Positions 10,076-20,910 of a stretch of DNA of 21,872 nt are shown piece by piece. Source of the DNA: a virus. Location of the stretch: positions 1 through 21,872 of IMG/VR virus record IMGVR_UViG_3300048834_001067; one strand, given 5' to 3'. The notes beneath the pieces are model-generated. The model was not told the origin of the DNA and ran no database searches. It was given only the letters and a program-made list of their open reading frames with translations. A program made the position numbers and the translations under genes. Positions within the stretch are counted from its first letter, which is position 1, and the number at the start of each line of letters is the position of its first letter.

Positions 10076-12225
10076 GGGTAAGCCTTGCCGCCAAGGACCT
10101 TCTCTCGCTTCCGCTCAAAAACCTCTCGGGGGTCACCCGCGGGCTTGGCGGTGAGCTGAAGCGGGCAAGCCTGGCGCTCGACGAGCTGCGCCGCCACGAC
10201 AAGCTTGCTGGCCAGATGAGGGGGCAGGCCAAGGCCACGCTTGAGGCTCACTCGCAGTGGAAAAGAGCCGAGGGGCGGGTGAGGGCGCTTGCCGCCGAGA
10301 TCAAGGCTGCCGGCGAGCCGAGTCGGCGCCTGGCCCGTGAGTTTGACGCGGCAAGAGTCTCGGCCTCGCGGCTTAAAGACGCCTTTGAGACAAAGACCGC
10401 CCGGCTTCGCGGCCTAAAGCGCGAGGCGCGGGAGGCTGGGCTCTCGATCCGCGGGCTCTCCGAGCGGCTTTCCGAGCAGGAGAAGGTCTTTGATCGCCTC
10501 AAAGCCAAGTCGGACCGGCTGTCGGGGCTGCGGAGGTCGGCAGAGGGCTTGAGCAGCAGGGCCTCTGAGCTTGCCATGATCGGGGGTGCTGCCTCTGGCT
10601 TTGGTCGCGGGGTGCTGGCCCAAGCGTCGCTGCCGCTTCAAACCGCCATGAGCCTTGAGGCCGTCATGGCCCGCGTGCGCTCGCGGGTCTTGTCGGGGCC
10701 AGACTACAAGGACAAGGCCCGCCAGGAGAGAGACCTTGCGACGCTGGAGCGCATGGCAGCCCGGGTGTCGACCCAGTTTGGCTACACGGGCGAAGAAGTT
10801 GGCTCTGCGATGATCCAGATGGGGACTGCCGGTCTTCAGTTTAAAGACATCACCGAGGCCAACCTCAAGGCCGTGCTGGCGGTCGCCAAGGTCGGAGACA
10901 TCTTGCCCCAGCAGTCGGTGAGTCTTCTCACCGGGATTGCGCATGCCTTCGAGCTGCCGATCGCGCGGCTGTCGCGCATTGGCGACGTTGTCCAGTACAC
11001 AGCCGACGTCTCCGACACCAACCTCACCGAGATCGCAGACGTCCTAAAGCACGTCGGCTCGGTTGCCAACGCTGCCAAAATCCCGCTTGAGACGGTGATG
11101 GCATCGGTGGCGATGCTGGCTGACGTCGGGGTCAAGGGCTCGGTCGCGGCCACAGCTCTCAAGGGGGCCTTTCTTGATCCGCTGGTTCACGACACTGTCG
11201 GCGGCACGCCAAAGACCGAGCAGGCCAAGCTTCTTAGGGCGCTTGGCATCCGGGTCGTTGACCCCAAGACGCGCGGCATGCGGCCTTTTATCTCGGTCAT
11301 GGAGGAGCTTGGCGCAAAGCTCTCTCCCATGGGCTCAGGCCAGAGGCTCAAAATCCTCGAGAAGCTTTTTGGGCGCGAAGGTCTGGCCGGCATCTCCGAG
11401 CTTGTGAATGTCGCCGTCAAGGCCGCTCGCGGCGACAGCGGGGCAGCCTCGAGGCTGTCGGCCCTCAGAGCGCGCGAGGCTGAGATCAGGACCCTTTCTG
11501 AGGGGACTGCCATGGAGAAGCTTACGCTCGAGGGCGCAACGGCGAGCACCTCGCTGCTCAGGCTCAAGGCCTCGCTGTCAGATCTTTTGAACGTCCTCGG
11601 AAAGCCTCTCCTTTCAGACCTCGCGCGGCTTGCCGGGGGACTGGCAGGGGTTGTCGACAAAACGCGCGACTGGGCGCTTGCCAATCCAGGGGTGACGAAG
11701 GCTCTCTCGGGCGTAGCGCTTGGGGTGGGCGGCGCGGCAGCAGCACTCGGCGCCCTTTTTATTCCGATCTCAACAGCCCTCGGGGCTATCGCGCTCTTTA
11801 AGGGAGCCTGGATCGGTTTTGGAGCGGCAGCCTCGGGAGCTATGGCGGCCGCTGCGGCGGGGGTCGGCGCGCTAAAAATCGCGCTTCTTGGCTCAGGCAT
11901 TGGGCTTGCCATAGCAGGGCTCGCCGGCGCCTCCTACCTTGTCTACGAGAACTGGGACAAGATCACGCAAAGCCTCCAGGCGGGCGGAAGGTCGGTGGCA
12001 GACTTCATGACCCGCATGACCTCCTTCAAGGCAACCGGCACGGTGCCGCTGGCTCTTGCCGCAGCTCAGCGGGGGCCGAGTCAGTCGATCCTAAACGCTC
12101 CCATCACCGTCAACGTCACAGAGCCAAGGGCCACCACCGCCGAGATCGCTGCCAAGCTCAAAGAGGTTTTGCGCGAGGTCAAAGACGAGGAGGCCAGGAC
12201 GTCGAGGGCAAGGCTCTATGACTGA
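10057..12225 (+). CDS. T: Tail tape measure protein, P2 gpT-like
   Basis: ATG 10057 lies within the end of the E' frame. The 722-aa product has a long charged helical N-terminus (~25-170, coiled coil), then a tape-measure core (~190-430: SLEAVMARVRSRV, QFGYTGEEVGSAMIQMGTAGLQF, then ADVGVKGSVAATALKGAFLDP). A Gly/Ala-rich hydrophobic region at ~550-620 could span the host inner membrane during DNA ejection. Length sets tail length; about 720 residues would suggest a tail near 100 nm if the usual proportionality holds. It directly follows the E/E' chaperone that should bind it. Confidence 0.94.
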   Translation: MADFKIRVSLAAKDLLSLPLKNLSGVTRGLGGELKRASLALDELRRHDKLAGQMRGQAKATLEAHSQWKRAEGRVRALAAEIKAAGEPSRRLAREFDAARVSASRLKDAFETKTARLRGLKREAREAGLSIRGLSERLSEQEKVFDRLKAKSDRLSGLRRSAEGLSSRASELAMIGGAASGFGRGVLAQASLPLQTAMSLEAVMARVRSRVLSGPDYKDKARQERDLATLERMAARVSTQFGYTGEEVGSAMIQMGTAGLQFKDITEANLKAVLAVAKVGDILPQQSVSLLTGIAHAFELPIARLSRIGDVVQYTADVSDTNLTEIADVLKHVGSVANAAKIPLETVMASVAMLADVGVKGSVAATALKGAFLDPLVHDTVGGTPKTEQAKLLRALGIRVVDPKTRGMRPFISVMEELGAKLSPMGSGQRLKILEKLFGREGLAGISELVNVAVKAARGDSGAASRLSALRAREAEIRTLSEGTAMEKLTLEGATASTSLLRLKASLSDLLNVLGKPLLSDLARLAGGLAGVVDKTRDWALANPGVTKALSGVALGVGGAAAALGALFIPISTALGAIALFKGAWIGFGAAASGAMAAAAAGVGALKIALLGSGIGLAIAGLAGASYLVYENWDKITQSLQAGGRSVADFMTRMTSFKATGTVPLALAAAQRGPSQSILNAPITVNVTEPRATTAEIAAKLKEVLREVKDEEARTSRARLYD

Positions 12226-12637
12226 CAAGGCCCTTTTTGCGCTGGGGGCGTTTCGCTTTCTCGCCGGAAGAAGCATGTTTGAGCGCCTGACAAGGAGCGA
12301 GAGCTTTCTTTGGGCCGAGCAGGAGAGGCTTGGCGGGACTTCGACGCTTAGCTACATGGGGCGCAGGGCGCGTGAGGTCGAGGTGACAGGCGAGACCTAT
12401 GCAGAAAGAGCTTCCACCGATGACCCTTTGAAAGCTCTGAAAGACGAGGCTCGCAGAGGTGAGCCGCTTCTTCTGGTCGACTCGGAGGGGCGGTCTCTTG
12501 GCAGCTGGGCGGTGGTCTCGCTAAGCGAGGAGCTGTCGAGCTTTCGCGGTGACGGCAAGGCGCGCAAGGTTGCCTTTCGGATTTCCCTAAAAAGCGTGAG
12601 AGTCGATGACGCTGCCAGTCAGGCCAAAGCCCTATGA
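12218..12637 (+). CDS. U: Tail protein U, P2 gpU-like
   Basis: ATG 12218 overlaps the tape measure stop by 8 bp. The 139-aa protein starts LFALGAFRFLAGRSMFERLTRSESF, then GTSTLSYMGRRAREVEVTG, then LLLVDSEGRSLGSWAVVSLSE, which matches P2 gpU (LGFFVF near the start, a G-x-D/E-x-x-x-x-G pattern later). gpU is a tail completion component. Its place after T and before D is the P2 order. Confidence 0.9.
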   Translation: MTDKALFALGAFRFLAGRSMFERLTRSESFLWAEQERLGGTSTLSYMGRRAREVEVTGETYAERASTDDPLKALKDEARRGEPLLLVDSEGRSLGSWAVVSLSEELSSFRGDGKARKVAFRISLKSVRVDDAASQAKAL

Positions 12638-12843
12638 TCTACCTGACGCGAGGGGGCGAGGTGCTAGACCTCATCTGCCACCAGGTCTTTGGCAAGACCG
12701 CCGGCGTCGTCGAAGAGGTGCTCGAGCTGAACCCGCACCTTCCCGAGCTTACAGCCGTCTTGCCTGAGGGGGTCGAGATCCTTCTTCCAAGCCCCCCGCG
12801 CAGCGCCAGGCCCGAGCGAAGAGAGATCTCGCTTTGGGACTAA
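12634..12843 (+). CDS. X: Tail protein X (LysM-like), P2 gpX-like
   Basis: The ATG is in an ATGA overlap with gpU. The 69-aa protein (EVLDLICHQVFGKTAGVVEEVLELNPHL, then LPEGVEILLP) matches the short LysM-like gpX family, thought to bind peptidoglycan or stabilise the baseplate hub. In P2 itself X lies elsewhere; many related prophages place it between U and D, as here. Confidence 0.9.
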   Translation: MIYLTRGGEVLDLICHQVFGKTAGVVEEVLELNPHLPELTAVLPEGVEILLPSPPRSARPERREISLWD

Positions 12844-13823
12844 AGCCGGGGGTTTCCCTCACAATCGACGGCGAGGAGAAAAAGGGGGTCTACCGCGAGA
12901 GGCTCAAGCGGCTTGTTCTCAAAGACGAGCGTGGTCTGCTCGCCGATCAACTCGAACTCTCCTTTGACGACTCAGACGGCAGGCTTGCTGTCCCTGAGCG
13001 CGGCCACCTCCTCAGCGTGGCGCTTGGCTGGGGGGAGAGCCTCACCCCCATGGGAAGCTTTTTTGTCGACGAAGTGTCGGTCTCAAGCCGCGGCGTCATG
13101 CGGCTTACCGGCAAGGGCTTTGACACCCTAAAAGACTTAAAAACCGTCTCCTCCAGGCTTTATACGGCAGGAGACCTCAAGGGGGTTTTGGACGAGCTCG
13201 GCCGCATCTATGGGCTCAAGGTGAAGGCCGCCGCCGCGCTTTCCCGCGTGAGGGTAACGGAGGTCTCCCAGAGAAACGAATCGGCCGTCCATTTCCTCTC
13301 TCGGCTTGCTGATGAGCACGCCCTCTTGCTCAAGCTCCAAGGCGACACGGTGCTGGTTCTTCCCCAGGGGGCGGGAGAGAGCGTCTCGGGCGAGTCACTT
13401 CCGGTTGTCGACGTCGCAGCGCTCGGCGGAAAGGTTCTTTCCTGGGACTTTGATTTTGTGAGTCGGCCGCTCTATGCATCGGTTGAGGCCGAGGCCTTTG
13501 ACCTTCATACGGCGCAAAGCGAGAAGGTGGTCATCGGCAGCGGAAAGCCCGTCTTTCGCTTTCGCGAGGTGTTTTCTTCTCGCGAGAAGGCCGAGCAGGC
13601 GGCCGCGGCCAAGCTTGCTCTTGCCGAGAGGCAAGGCGTCACGGGAAGGCTCGAGCTGGAAGGCGAGGCAAGGATCTGTGCGGACTCCAGGCTCAGGCTT
13701 TCGGGGTTTCGCGCGGCAGTCGATGGCCTTTGGAGCGTGACATCTGCCACTCACACCGTGGCGCCCGAGGAGGCCTACGTCGTCAGCCTCGCATGCGAAA
13801 GGCTGCCAGACCAACAGCGATGA
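12834..13823 (+). CDS. D: Baseplate hub / late control protein D, P2 gpD-like
   Basis: The start is TTG 12834, ten bases inside gpX, with GAAGAGAG upstream. The 329-aa product has KPGVSLTIDGEE, LVLKDERGLLADQLELSFDDSDG, MGSFFVDEVSVSSRG and LTGKGFDTLKDLKTVSSRLY, the standard run of the late control D / gp27-like hub family. The protein forms the hub on which the spike sits. It closes the structural operon; no convincing terminator with a T-run is seen after it. Confidence 0.93.
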   Translation: MGLKPGVSLTIDGEEKKGVYRERLKRLVLKDERGLLADQLELSFDDSDGRLAVPERGHLLSVALGWGESLTPMGSFFVDEVSVSSRGVMRLTGKGFDTLKDLKTVSSRLYTAGDLKGVLDELGRIYGLKVKAAAALSRVRVTEVSQRNESAVHFLSRLADEHALLLKLQGDTVLVLPQGAGESVSGESLPVVDVAALGGKVLSWDFDFVSRPLYASVEAEAFDLHTAQSEKVVIGSGKPVFRFREVFSSREKAEQAAAAKLALAERQGVTGRLELEGEARICADSRLRLSGFRAAVDGLWSVTSATHTVAPEEAYVVSLACERLPDQQR

Positions 13824-14031: not shown

Positions 14032-14075
14032 CATTGTAGGTTTGATCGAATCAAAGACAAAAAATACCTACAATG
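14032..14075. promoter_or_regulatory. Candidate operator: nested inverted repeats upstream of the ParA-like gene
   Basis: CATTGTAGGT (14032-14041) and ACCTACAATG (14066-14075) are a perfect 10-bp inverted repeat. A second one, TTTGAT (14041-14046) with ATCAAA (14050-14055), lies inside it. The outer right arm ends 14 bases before the ATG. The left arm shares TTGTAGG with the left edge of the 15-bp repeat array (15764-15769 reads TGTAGG after TT). In type Ia partition systems, ParA represses its own promoter by binding an inverted repeat here. No clean -35/-10 pair was found. Confidence 0.6.
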
Positions 14076-14089
14076 GCGGTGTGTGAATC

Positions 14090-15097
14090 ATGCTCGAAAA
14101 GGACCTATTCACTAGCACTGACCTGCACAAGCTGTTTCAGATGAATTCGGTTGCTCCTAATACGCTCATTGCCGCGGAGAAAGCAGGGCACATTCCCAAG
14201 GCGCGGCGCGTTCATCGCGGCCGGATAGAGGTGCGGCAGTGGACGCTTGCACAGGTGCCAGCGATCGGAGCTAAGTACGGTTTTCTTGAGCCGCCGAAGT
14301 CTCTGCGGGTGATTTGCGTATATACCGCGAAAGGAGGAGTGCTCAAAAGCACGCTGAGCTACTCGTTGGGTCGCCTCTTGGCCTTACACGGCATCAAAAC
14401 TCTGATCATTGGCCTGGATATCCAGGGAACGGTGACGGATCTAGCTCTGAATCCAATTGCAATCGAGTCTCTAGAGGAAGTTACGGCGTACAAGGGACTG
14501 GCGGATGTTTTGCTTGGGAAGGCGCCGCTAAAGAAGGTGATTCGCGAAACTCCATTGCCTACGCTCGATATTATTCCGGAGACACCTGGTCTAGGTCCTC
14601 TAGAAAAATTTATCCGTGATACGAAGCGCCGTGAGTTCGTCCTCAAAGAACAGGTGATCGCTCCCCTCGCGAACGACTATCAAGTGATCATTTTTGATAA
14701 CAGCCCTAACTGGAATCTCCTGATCGAGAATGCTCTCACTGCGGCTAATGTCGTGATTTCACCTATAGGGTGTGATCTTGGAAGTTATCAGGCTCTTTCG
14801 ACGAATCTTTCGACGACTCTCGACTTCCAGAAGGACATGCATATCGAGTGGGATAACGTCATTTTGGTTCCCACTCTTCTCGAGAAAAACAAGCTTAGCT
14901 CGCAAATCTATGGAGCATATCTCACACAGCATCCAGGTCTAGTTACTCATACAGCGATTCGTCGCGCTGTGCGTGGTCAAGAGGCGCTCACGATGCGGCA
15001 GTCAGCTCCAGAGTATGATCCGAAGAGTGATCTTGCGCGAGATTACTATGATCTCGTGAAGGAAGTTTGGAGCAGGATCTTGAAGGCGGAGAAGTAA
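14090..15097 (+). CDS. ParA/MinD-family partition ATPase with N-terminal HTH
   Basis: This 335-aa protein has a MerR/ParA-type DNA-binding start (~8-63: STDLHKLFQMNSVAPNTLIAAEKAGHIP, then VRQWTLAQVPAIGAKYG). An ATPase domain follows. Its P-loop (residues 81-88) reads KGGVLKST where the family consensus is KGGVGKT[ST]: both Lys are kept, the central Gly is Leu. GLDIQGT (~109) replaces the usual D-x-DPQ, and VIIFDNSP is the Walker B region. Size and N-terminal HTH fit type Ia plasmid ParA, which segregates DNA and represses its own operon. The gene and its partner are less GC-rich than the phage genes, suggesting separate acquisition. Confidence 0.85.
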   Translation: MLEKDLFTSTDLHKLFQMNSVAPNTLIAAEKAGHIPKARRVHRGRIEVRQWTLAQVPAIGAKYGFLEPPKSLRVICVYTAKGGVLKSTLSYSLGRLLALHGIKTLIIGLDIQGTVTDLALNPIAIESLEEVTAYKGLADVLLGKAPLKKVIRETPLPTLDIIPETPGLGPLEKFIRDTKRREFVLKEQVIAPLANDYQVIIFDNSPNWNLLIENALTAANVVISPIGCDLGSYQALSTNLSTTLDFQKDMHIEWDNVILVPTLLEKNKLSSQIYGAYLTQHPGLVTHTAIRRAVRGQEALTMRQSAPEYDPKSDLARDYYDLVKEVWSRILKAEK

Positions 15098-15098
15098 T

Positions 15099-15761
15099 AT
15101 GGCCATTAAGGGAAATCCCTTCGCTTCTACGCGCAAGCCGCCTGCACGCCTAACTCCTCGAGCATATGAAAAGCTGTATGGGTCGAGCAATCCTGAGGAT
15201 GAGACGGATCCGTCGCAGGCACCAGAGACAGCTTCGTCCGATATCAATGCGGAGGAACAAAGCCAGGCTCTTCCCACCCTAGAGAGCGGGAGCCAAGTTG
15301 AGTCTCCTGCCGTTGAAGCTAAAAAATCGATTCAGGGAGCGACATCTCAAGTTTCACGGCGTGCGCCGCCCGTGACTGTTGGTAAGTCATCATTGTTGCC
15401 TGAGGTACCTCTGAGGATTGACCTCACGAGGGACGAGCGATTTTTGGCGAGATATTGGTTTGATCCCGCATTAGGAGGCTTGCCTCGCTCACAGGAGCGT
15501 TTTTTTCATTTTTATCGCTTTCTGTATGCTGAGGCGGCCCGTACCGGTTGCGGCAGAGTTTTTTGCACGAAAAAGATGCTCGTGGACGCTCTTGGAGAGA
15601 GAGCTCGCGCTACGTTCACGAAGTATCGAAAGCTCGGCGAGCAGTACGGCATGTTCACTGTGCATGTTGTGGGCAATTTGGGGCGCCGAAAGAATCAGGC
15701 AGGCACCTACTTTTTTCTGCGCGATCCTTGGAATAGCCAAGTAATTACAACTAAGTCCTAG
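15099..15761 (+). CDS. Winged-helix-like DNA-binding partner of ParA (centromere-binding or Rep-like)
   Basis: ATG 15099 follows the ParA stop by one base and has GGAG nine bases upstream, so the two are co-transcribed. Residues ~1-105 are disordered-looking, rich in Ser, Pro, Glu and Gln, and would suit a ParA-contacting tail. Residues ~110-215 look like a winged helix: RYWFDPALGGLPRSQERFF, then TKKMLVDALGERARATFTKYRKLGEQYG, then a beta hairpin (FTVHVVGNLGRRKNQAGTYFFL). Canonical ParB N-terminal motifs are absent. The array of 15-bp repeats begins four bases after the stop, so this is the obvious candidate to bind it, as SopB binds sopC in F. A replication-initiator role is the main alternative. 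Confidence 0.72.
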   Translation: MAIKGNPFASTRKPPARLTPRAYEKLYGSSNPEDETDPSQAPETASSDINAEEQSQALPTLESGSQVESPAVEAKKSIQGATSQVSRRAPPVTVGKSSLLPEVPLRIDLTRDERFLARYWFDPALGGLPRSQERFFHFYRFLYAEAARTGCGRVFCTKKMLVDALGERARATFTKYRKLGEQYGMFTVHVVGNLGRRKNQAGTYFFLRDPWNSQVITTKS

Positions 15762-15764
15762 TTT

Positions 15765-16049
15765 GTAGGCTCCTATCGCGTAGGCTCCTATCGCGTAGGC
15801 TCCTATCGCGTAGGCTCCTATCGCGTAGGCTCCTATCGCGTAGGCTCCTATCGCGTAGGCTCCTATCGCGCAGGCTCCTATTGCGTAGGCTCCTATCGCG
15901 TAGGCTCCTATCGCGTAGGCTCCTATCGCGCAGGCTCCTATTGCGTAGGCTCCTATTGCGTAGGCTCCTATTGCGCAGGCTCCTATTGCACAGGCTCCTA
16001 TTGCGTAGGCTCCTATTGCGCAGGCTCCTATCGCGTAGGCTCCTACCAA
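15765..16049. repeat. Tandem array of 15-bp repeats: candidate centromere (parS) or iterons
   Basis: Eighteen complete head-to-tail units (15765-16034) are followed by one degenerate unit, GTAGGCTCCTACCAA (16035-16049). The consensus is GTAGGCTCCTATCGC. Bases AGGCTCCTAT are the same in all 18. Position 2 is T or C, position 13 is C or T, and position 1 is A once (unit 15990-16004). Units 1-7 are identical; variants cluster to the right. There are no spacers, so it is not CRISPR. Direct repeats next to a ParA operon usually form a centromere; replication iterons look similar but are more often 17-22 bp. Confidence 0.9.
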
Positions 16050-16168: not shown

Positions 16169-16201
16169 TCGGCACGTTGTGCTAGCAACACAACGTGCCG
16201 A
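16169..16201. promoter_or_regulatory. 13-bp-arm inverted repeat upstream of the membrane-protein gene
   Basis: TCGGCACGTTGTG (16169-16181) and CACAACGTGCCGA (16189-16201) are perfect inverted arms around the 7-base centre CTAGCAA. It is the strongest palindrome in the window and lies 57 bases before the ATG at 16259, in the 209-base gap between the array and that gene. No T-run follows, so a simple terminator is unlikely. Operator, replication or resolution site are possible. The first part of the gap (16050-16140) is T-rich and shows no gene. Confidence 0.65.
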
Positions 16202-16258
16202 TTGTCGCCCTCTCATTGGGGACGACGCGACATCACCTTAAGTAGGAAGGAGATGCCA

Positions 16259-17161
16259 ATGGGACAGCGTTCCATAGATGTGGCGATGCGTCAAAACAAG
16301 GCATTTCGGCAACGTGTCGCTTACTGGCAGGCCAAAGGGTATCCGGCAGAAGAGGCGCACCGTCGGGCTAGTGTGAGAAGTCAGATCCTGTCCTTGGCAC
16401 CGGCTCCCGAGCAGAAGATCAGCCGGGATGAACCTGTAGAGAGCAGAAGACCTGACGAGACGAAAGCCAGTCTCGCACCAGAAGTTGTGTCGCGCCGCGC
16501 CGTCCAGCCAGCCGGCGAGCTGGTGGCGCCGAAAACCTGCGCTGCCGGAAATCGGATCTCGCAGAAAAGCCACGCGGCAGATGCCCTGCAGGTTGCCGTC
16601 TGCGCCGTAGTCGTTCTCGGCGCATCGACTCTGCTCGTCAGGTCATCGGTGACGGTTTTCGGTGAGACCTGGGAAGGCTGGCTGAAGGCGATTCTGCTGG
16701 AGGTTGGAATCGTCGGCCTTTCGGTTTATCGGCCGACAGGGCTTGTCCAGTTTTTGGTCTCGCGCGGCGGCGCGCTGCTCTTAGTCGCTCTTTCGCTGCT
16801 GGTGCTTCATGCAGGCGTCAAAAACGACGCCTTGCAGGCGCTGGCGGCTGCTACAAACTCAAGCGCTGAAGTCGAGGACCTTCGCAAGGAGAGGCACCAC
16901 CTCGAAGCTCTCCTGGAGACGCTGCCGAAAGAGCATGTCACTCGCCGCGAGGCGACCCTTCGGCTTCTCGGCGAGAACTCTGCTCGCTCGCAAGCTGCGC
17001 GCATTCGCTCACAGGAAAGTGCCAGCGTCCAAGCTAGCGAGCGCCTCTACACGGTGGAGGCACTGATGCGTGCTGCGCTGATGTTTCTCAACATCAGTTT
17101 TGCGCACGGGCTTATCCGGCGTGTAAGATCCTCCGCTTTGGAGGACCACACGCCCAGATAA
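16259..17161 (+). CDS. Multi-pass membrane protein with coiled coil, unknown function
   Basis: The frame is open from further upstream, but AGGAAGGAG (16244-16252) lies six bases before ATG 16259, giving exactly 300 aa. Residues 1-100 are basic and soluble-looking (MRQNKAFRQRVAYWQAKGYPAEEAHRRAS). Hydrophobic segments occur at ~107-127, ~141-157, ~164-187 and ~267-285. A charged coiled coil fills ~203-265 (VEDLRKERHHLEALLETL). I do not recognise it. Its place between the partition/array block and the replication gene suggests membrane anchoring of replication or partition, or a superinfection-type envelope function; neither is shown. Confidence 0.8.
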   Translation: MGQRSIDVAMRQNKAFRQRVAYWQAKGYPAEEAHRRASVRSQILSLAPAPEQKISRDEPVESRRPDETKASLAPEVVSRRAVQPAGELVAPKTCAAGNRISQKSHAADALQVAVCAVVVLGASTLLVRSSVTVFGETWEGWLKAILLEVGIVGLSVYRPTGLVQFLVSRGGALLLVALSLLVLHAGVKNDALQALAAATNSSAEVEDLRKERHHLEALLETLPKEHVTRREATLRLLGENSARSQAARIRSQESASVQASERLYTVEALMRAALMFLNISFAHGLIRRVRSSALEDHTPR

Positions 17162-19977: not shown

Positions 19978-20910
19978 ATGATGCGTCTTGAGCCGAGAAT
20001 GCGGCCCTACCGGATCCTGTCGCTTGATGGGGGCGGAATCCGTGGCGCCTATCAAGCCGTGATACTGGCTCGGCTGGCGGAAGCAGTGCCGGCGTTCTTG
20101 CCCTCGGTGCGTCTTTTTGCGGGGACCTCGATCGGTGCGATCAGCGCCATGGCGCTGGCCTCGGGGATGGGGGCCAGCGAGCTTGTCACGTTCTTCGAAA
20201 AGCATGGGGCCAAGGTCTTTGACGACTCCTGGTGCGACAACCTCCAAGACATGGGCAAGGTCATCGGCGCTGACTATGACCAGGGCTACCTCAAGCGGGT
20301 CCTCGAGCGGATCTTCGGCGAAGGGCTGCTCTCGGGCTTGAAGCGGCGCGTGCTCGTTCCAAGCTTCGACCTCGACAACGAGGGCTCGCCTCGGACCTGG
20401 AAAATGAAGTTCTTCCACAACTACCCCGGGGCCGATTCAGACGGGGCGGAACGGACAATCGACGTAGCCTTGCGATCGAGCGCGGCGCCGACCTACTTTC
20501 CAAGCTACCAGGGCTATGTCGACGGCGGGGTCGGGTGCAACAATCCGGCGATGGCGGCCGTAGCGCTTGCCATCAACCCGGACGTCGGCCGTCAGGACCT
20601 CGGCTCGCTGCGCGTCTTCTCGCTCTCAACCGGGAGGAGCCCGCAGTGGATCTCCGGCAAGACCCTGGACTGGGGCTTTGCCCAATGGGCTCAGCCGATG
20701 ACAAGCCTGATGATCGACGCCAACGTCGGGATAGCCGACTACCAGTGCCAACAGATTCTCGGCGAAAAGGCCTATTTTCGCTTTGATGAGATGCTTCCGC
20801 GCCGCGTCGGAACAGATGAGTCGGCCGCGCTAGCCGACCTCATGCGGTGGGCTCAAAGTGTCGATCTCACCGCAGCAGTGTCGTGGCTCGAGGAAAAATA
20901 CCTAGGCTGA
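19978..20910 (+). CDS. Patatin-like phospholipase
   Basis: The protein has all parts of a patatin active site: oxyanion hole GGGIRG (residues 18-23), nucleophile elbow GTSIG (Ser51) and the second catalytic residue in VDGG (Asp182). The first residues PYRILSLDGGG are typical; ATG 19978, 19981 or 19999 could be the start. Such enzymes cut acyl chains from membrane lipids. It follows the lysozyme by 73 bases, so it may help open membranes at lysis or entry. Patatin genes also occur with the tail genes of Wolbachia phage WO. CBASS effectors (CapV) share this fold, but no cyclic-nucleotide synthase gene is next to it. Confidence 0.9.
   Translation: MMRLEPRMRPYRILSLDGGGIRGAYQAVILARLAEAVPAFLPSVRLFAGTSIGAISAMALASGMGASELVTFFEKHGAKVFDDSWCDNLQDMGKVIGADYDQGYLKRVLERIFGEGLLSGLKRRVLVPSFDLDNEGSPRTWKMKFFHNYPGADSDGAERTIDVALRSSAAPTYFPSYQGYVDGGVGCNNPAMAAVALAINPDVGRQDLGSLRVFSLSTGRSPQWISGKTLDWGFAQWAQPMTSLMIDANVGIADYQCQQILGEKAYFRFDEMLPRRVGTDESAALADLMRWAQSVDLTAAVSWLEEKYLG

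Follow-up and report, generated by a model that had tools for sequence, protein, structure and literature searches.

The locus described here is, with a probability that we put at about 75%, a type Ia-like ParA partition system in which ParB is replaced by a winged-helix centromere-binding protein. It lies in a stretch of 21,872 bp, hereafter the window, which is an entire IMG/VR record and a fragment of a contractile-tailed phage with genes for a major head protein, baseplate, sheath, tape measure and tail proteins as well as a GH108 endolysin and a patatin-like protein. A ParA gene, its partner gene and a tandem array are placed between the tail genes and a gene for a primase-like protein (PriCT_1 E 0.0016, a score below the curated cut-off). 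A preliminary description of this DNA had named an HTH-type ParA, a partner that is not a ParB and a 15-bp array; all three are present, far from chance expectation, and the features of the locus are as follows.

14032-14075, no strand assigned: parA operator, a probable ParA dimer site judging by its inverted repeat, F-plasmid geometry and conservation.
14090-15097, plus strand: ParA ATPase, 335 aa, with an N-terminal HTH-type region (aa 1-66) and the deviant Walker A motif KGGVLKST (aa 81-88).
15099-15761, plus strand: partner, a predicted centromere-binding protein of 220 aa that starts MAIKGNPF, disordered over residues 1-105 and with a winged helix at 109-207.
15765-16045, plus strand: tandem array and predicted centromere, 18.7 copies of a 15-bp unit made of the core TAGG-N2-CCTA and five variable bases.

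Other features of the window were seen along the way. A perfect inverted repeat with 13-bp arms, TCGGCACGTTGTG/CACAACGTGCCGA, around a 7-nt loop lies 3' of the array (16169-16201), a 301-aa predicted membrane/coiled-coil protein that matches no family is encoded between the array and the primase-like gene (16256-17161), and the gene for the patatin-like phospholipase (19978-20910) adjoins that for the phage endolysin.

The ParA assignment rests on matches to AAA_31 (E 4e-28), to phrog_164 'ParA-like partition' (E 1e-38, from residue 18) and to SopA/RepA-type NCBIfam models, with the SopA profile aligned from residue 19; its 66-residue N-terminal region is conserved. The operator before the gene is a perfect 10-bp inverted repeat, CATTGTAGGT (14032-14041) and ACCTACAATG (14066-14075), whose hexamers TTGTAG/CTACAA are 28 bp apart in the window and 27-28 bp apart across the window, its viral relatives and Legionella, and the ParA site of the F plasmid likewise consists of inverted hexamers about 28 bp apart (PMC8465637). 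It is conserved in the viral relatives, in the Legionella loci and in L022. The preliminary description had remarked that the operator shares TTGTAGG with the edge of the array, and the letters do recur at 15763-15769; however, the Legionella operators (TTGTATG-N25/26-CATACAA) keep near-identical arms and spacing, at the same distance from parA as in the window, while the array motif there is GGTTCACAA, so the sharing is probably coincidental rather than functional, and we dropped the operator-array link. Since the operator is conserved independently of the array motif, it is most likely a binding site for ParA with the geometry seen in the F plasmid.

The partner gene begins after a gap of 1 nt. 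Pfam, PHROG and NCBIfam gave no match for its product at E<1, but the AlphaFold2 model bears out the earlier proposal of a disordered N-terminus and a winged-helix C-terminus: residues 1-105 are mostly disordered, and residues 109-207 (pLDDT about 80) run helix-helix-strand-helix-helix-strand-strand, which is winged-helix topology. Foldseek gave no significant match for this model, and neither the partner alone as a query against plasmid and phage collections nor its N-terminal patterns in a genome search retrieved anything.

Four nucleotides past the partner's stop codon, and thus outside its open reading frame, the array begins, with a near-palindromic unit for which TRF reports period 15, 94% matches, a score of 471 and zero indels. 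Every one of the 14 TAGG-N2-CCTA sites in the window falls inside it (shuffled sequence gave a mean of 0.12 and a maximum of 2). A minus-strand open reading frame across it (15489-16049, encoding AYAIGAC repeats) was rejected as a gene, being an artefact of the 15-bp period. The partner is also encoded, at 71-100% identity, by five viral contigs, one of which (L002) is a near-identical copy. The preliminary description had suggested looking elsewhere for the same gene pair with repeats, and had counted a lack of repeats at this position in related elements as evidence against a partition module; on the contrary, all five contigs keep the order parA-partner-array, with the array directly behind the partner gene, and three of them terminate within it, as assemblies do. 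In L005 and L006 the unit has changed to TCCTACTTCGTAGGC, with at least 33 copies in L006, and here too the core TAGG-N2-CCTA is retained while the other five bases drift. All 25 such sites in a 36.7-kb viral relative are inside the array, and over 24 distinct units the core positions mostly carry 1.75-2 bits, compared with 0.3-1.1 bits for the spacer. A retained core, a drifting spacer and confinement to the array together suggest an array of binding sites under selection and homogenisation. Three of the viral relatives (L063, L064 and L065) have a tyrosine-recombinase domain in an open frame of 505-597 aa, an unusually long recombinase (531 aa in L063).

More distant relatives of the locus are found on plasmids and in genomes. 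Homologues of the window ParA occur on Piscirickettsia, Legionella/Fluoribacter and Bdellovibrio plasmids (36-48% identity along the full length) and, at up to 57% identity, in genomes of Gammaproteobacteria and Bdellovibrionota. At 34 such loci a disordered and winged-helix partner is encoded immediately 3' of parA. The first genome scan gave 27 loci, in which the partner gene starts -23 to +32 nt after the ParA homologue; most of the partners there combine a disordered N-terminus rich in repeats with a winged helix whose wing is of the GRGGW type. The family winged helix was modelled at pLDDT 93.5, and Foldseek returned many MarR/ArsR-type matches for it, pNOB8 AspA (4rs8) and TubR (6tey) among them, at E about 0.01. 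A short-period array is present here as in the window, although that of the window has 15-bp units outside the open reading frame and those of the distant family usually have an 11-bp period and lie mostly within the partner coding sequence, often with copies before parA too. The motifs are GGTTCACAA in Legionella, CGGAACACAAA and GGGGTAACAAA in Piscirickettsia and ACCCGATAA in Bdellovibrio, where all 14 copies in 50 kb of a plasmid are within the partner gene; L030 has 42 copies of TAAACTAGAGA before parA. Since 3 does not divide 11, the in-gene copies are spread over all three reading frames (96/76/83), and it is therefore the DNA rather than the peptide that is conserved.

Some further features of related loci were also noted. 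The Piscirickettsia plasmid L017 carries a second, distant ParA with a winged-helix partner (11262-13707, minus strand), with a 45-bp repeat in six copies (AGGAACAATAT-type) in the partner gene and the motif also before parA. Long-form partners (L024, L026-L028, L044-L048, L108 and L116) carry a further conserved domain at the C-terminus, about 180 aa long (GF..HL.QI...FMGI), that matches no family. In L083-L107, from Bdellovibrionota genomes, the ParA forms a related clade, is often encoded on a large contig and is followed by short partners of about 110-160 aa that have an N-terminal MALSL...RPW motif and no recognised DNA-binding domain, mostly without an array.

The window partner and the family winged helices have only their predicted topology in common: HHalign found no match between them, the HMM score was no better than for shuffles, and combined alignments were unreliable. 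Transfer from the family to the window consequently relies on ParA, gene order, the array and a short N-terminal likeness (MAIKGNPF in the window partner, which lacks the FDDP motif considered below, and MAIKKGAF or MTLKGNPF in relatives). Given this absence of detectable homology, and a 15-bp near-palindromic array outside the open reading frame, the winged helix of the window has either diverged strongly or been recruited independently as a DNA-binding domain for the same ParA.

Partner type and array go together across these loci. An array stands above shuffles at 31 of the 34 loci with a family winged helix (peak lag 11 in 27 of the 31) and at 11 of 42 loci with ParB or other partners, where it is mostly weak; two Legionella loci truncated inside repeats were counted among the 'other' partners. 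The Fisher p of 7e-9 for this association ignores kinship, and in independent contrasts (4-6 contrasts) the direction mostly holds and is not significant. In the ParA tree the window belongs to a 32-row clade (support 100/99) with 24 winged-helix partners, and nested in that clade are Cysteiniphilum and Francisella loci that have a true ParB as partner (ParB_N E 1e-12 and 1e-11) and no array. These ParBs and many of the winged-helix partners have in common an N-terminal motif of the type [KR]-x-F/Y-D-D-P. It occurs in 21 of 34 partners against 0.8 expected, a comparison to be read knowing that the pattern was written post hoc and the sequences are related, and the simplest reading is that it may be a common ParA-contact peptide on exchangeable DNA-binding domains. 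ParB_N is absent from the window record, its five relatives and four complete plasmids (L. anisa, F. dumoffii, Bdellovibrio and P. salmonis p2PS6); on the L. antarctica plasmid it is present elsewhere on the plasmid.

From these comparisons we infer that the partner binds DNA and contacts ParA, and that the pair acts in partition and may maintain the element as a plasmid, a state made less certain by the tyrosine recombinase of three relatives. ParA, with its HTH and deviant Walker ATPase, would bind the inverted repeat before parA and so repress its own operon, while the C-terminal winged helix of the partner would bind the TAGG-N2-CCTA units of the array. Many copies of the partner loaded side by side could make of the array a nucleoprotein cargo, and the disordered N-terminus might then contact nucleoid-bound ParA and stimulate ATP hydrolysis, so that the copies of the element would be moved apart. 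The partner would in this way do the job of ParB without the ParB fold. A partition role had already been put forward in the preliminary description, and the comparisons support it well, through the position of the partner, the N-terminal motif common to family partners and ParBs, the conservation of the array and the complete plasmids without ParB.

The main rival to this reading is replication instead of partition. The array would then be an origin made of iterons and the partner an initiator akin to lambda O or the Rep proteins of plasmids, ParA being no more than a linked gene. Some family winged helices do match phage replication initiators weakly (phrog_270 E 5e-6, L044), the lambda O gene likewise contains its origin (PMC7157519), and on a Piscirickettsia phage-plasmid the partner motif also precedes a separate HTH gene. 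We nevertheless consider this explanation unlikely, as a true ParB takes the partner's place in two members of the same ParA clade, a Piscirickettsia plasmid has a separate annotated replication initiation protein, the window encodes its weakly matched primase-like protein downstream, and the window partner matches no Rep family in Pfam, PHROG or NCBIfam. The repeats might instead serve both functions, as centromere and as copy-number or origin iterons, with the partner and a separate Rep binding the same repeats and coupling replication to segregation. Plasmids of Piscirickettsia and Legionella, which carry the motif both within the partner gene and close to a further HTH gene, would fit such an arrangement; in the window family and on the Bdellovibrio plasmid, however, the motif is limited to one place, and we hold a double role to be quite improbable. 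That the array has nothing to do with ParA and serves in regulation, packaging or recombination might be suggested by the tyrosine recombinase of the three relatives and by the capsid and tail genes that make the element a phage, but arrays track parA-partner loci in phages as well as on conjugative plasmids and do not occur where ParB replaces the partner, which makes this last explanation very improbable indeed.

If the partition reading is right, there is a ParB-less route to a bacterial centromere, which would account for the segregation of Legionella- and Piscirickettsia-type plasmids and phage-plasmids; when Piscirickettsia plasmids were studied in 2019, proteins of ParA type were found and iterons were not (PMC6963756). 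The module family, on Legionella, Piscirickettsia and Bdellovibrio-type plasmids, has been little noticed, and most of its members hold the repeats within the partner gene, which raises the question of how one stretch of DNA can be under selection for its binding sites and its coding sequence at the same time. Repeat motifs specific to each plasmid suggest that incompatibility could be predictable from sequence. Whether these loci form a distinct class of ParA segregation seems to us an evenly balanced matter: it would have a winged-helix replacement for ParB, an 11- to 15-bp array in or against the gene of its binder, a DNA-binding module repeatedly swapped and a conserved ParA-contact peptide, and it would be spread over phages and plasmids, in Gammaproteobacteria and Bdellovibrionota. 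In such a class protein and centromere would travel as one unit, and the array would constrain the disordered linker that it encodes.

Precedents exist for each part, in the CTPase-less ParT with its in-gene parS, the direct repeats of phage parABS systems and the winged-helix TubR and AspA; the combination of ParA, winged-helix partner and short-repeat array was not found in the open-access literature, most subscription journals lying outside the search. Like type Ia ParABS systems (F SopABC, P1 ParABS), the locus has a ParA with an N-terminal DNA-binding region and a deviant Walker A (KGGxxK[ST]), widely spaced inverted repeats before parA (the predicted ParA site in the window) and tandem repeats 3' of the partner gene (parS of F is twelve 43-bp repeats). 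It differs from them in a partner with neither ParB_N/CTPase nor a ParB-type HTH and in 15-bp (or 11-bp) repeats without a spacer, the arrays of relatives often being inside the partner gene. Unlike type Ib (ParF/ParG), its ParA has an N-terminal region and its partner is modelled as a winged helix, not a ribbon-helix-helix. The window ParA shares a clade with the winged-helix partner and array family (L016-L050 and others), although the winged helix of its partner has no detectable sequence similarity to theirs. By layout, the actinobacteriophage parABS systems (RedRock, Miko; PMC7157519) are also phage-borne, with ParA, varied DNA-binding partners and a direct-repeat parS, which there consists of two loci of eight 8-bp repeats. 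The ParATS system of SCP2 (PMC12260392) resembles the locus in a CTPase-less partner, in an N-terminal peptide that contacts ParA (as may hold in the window) and in a binding site within the partner's own gene (as in the relatives, not the window), but in ParT a ParB-like M domain is retained, and its site is a single one of 18 bp and no array. The window partner matches no ParB family and is modelled with a wing. Type III TubZRC is moved by a tubulin-like GTPase, whereas the motor in the window is a ParA ATPase. The pNOB8 system (ParA-ParB-AspA) differs in that a ParB adaptor is needed there and the window record has no ParB_N; it and TubZRC are like the window locus in using winged-helix proteins, the described TubR and centromere-binding AspA (PMC9178275), that assemble on their own centromere as the window partner is predicted to do.
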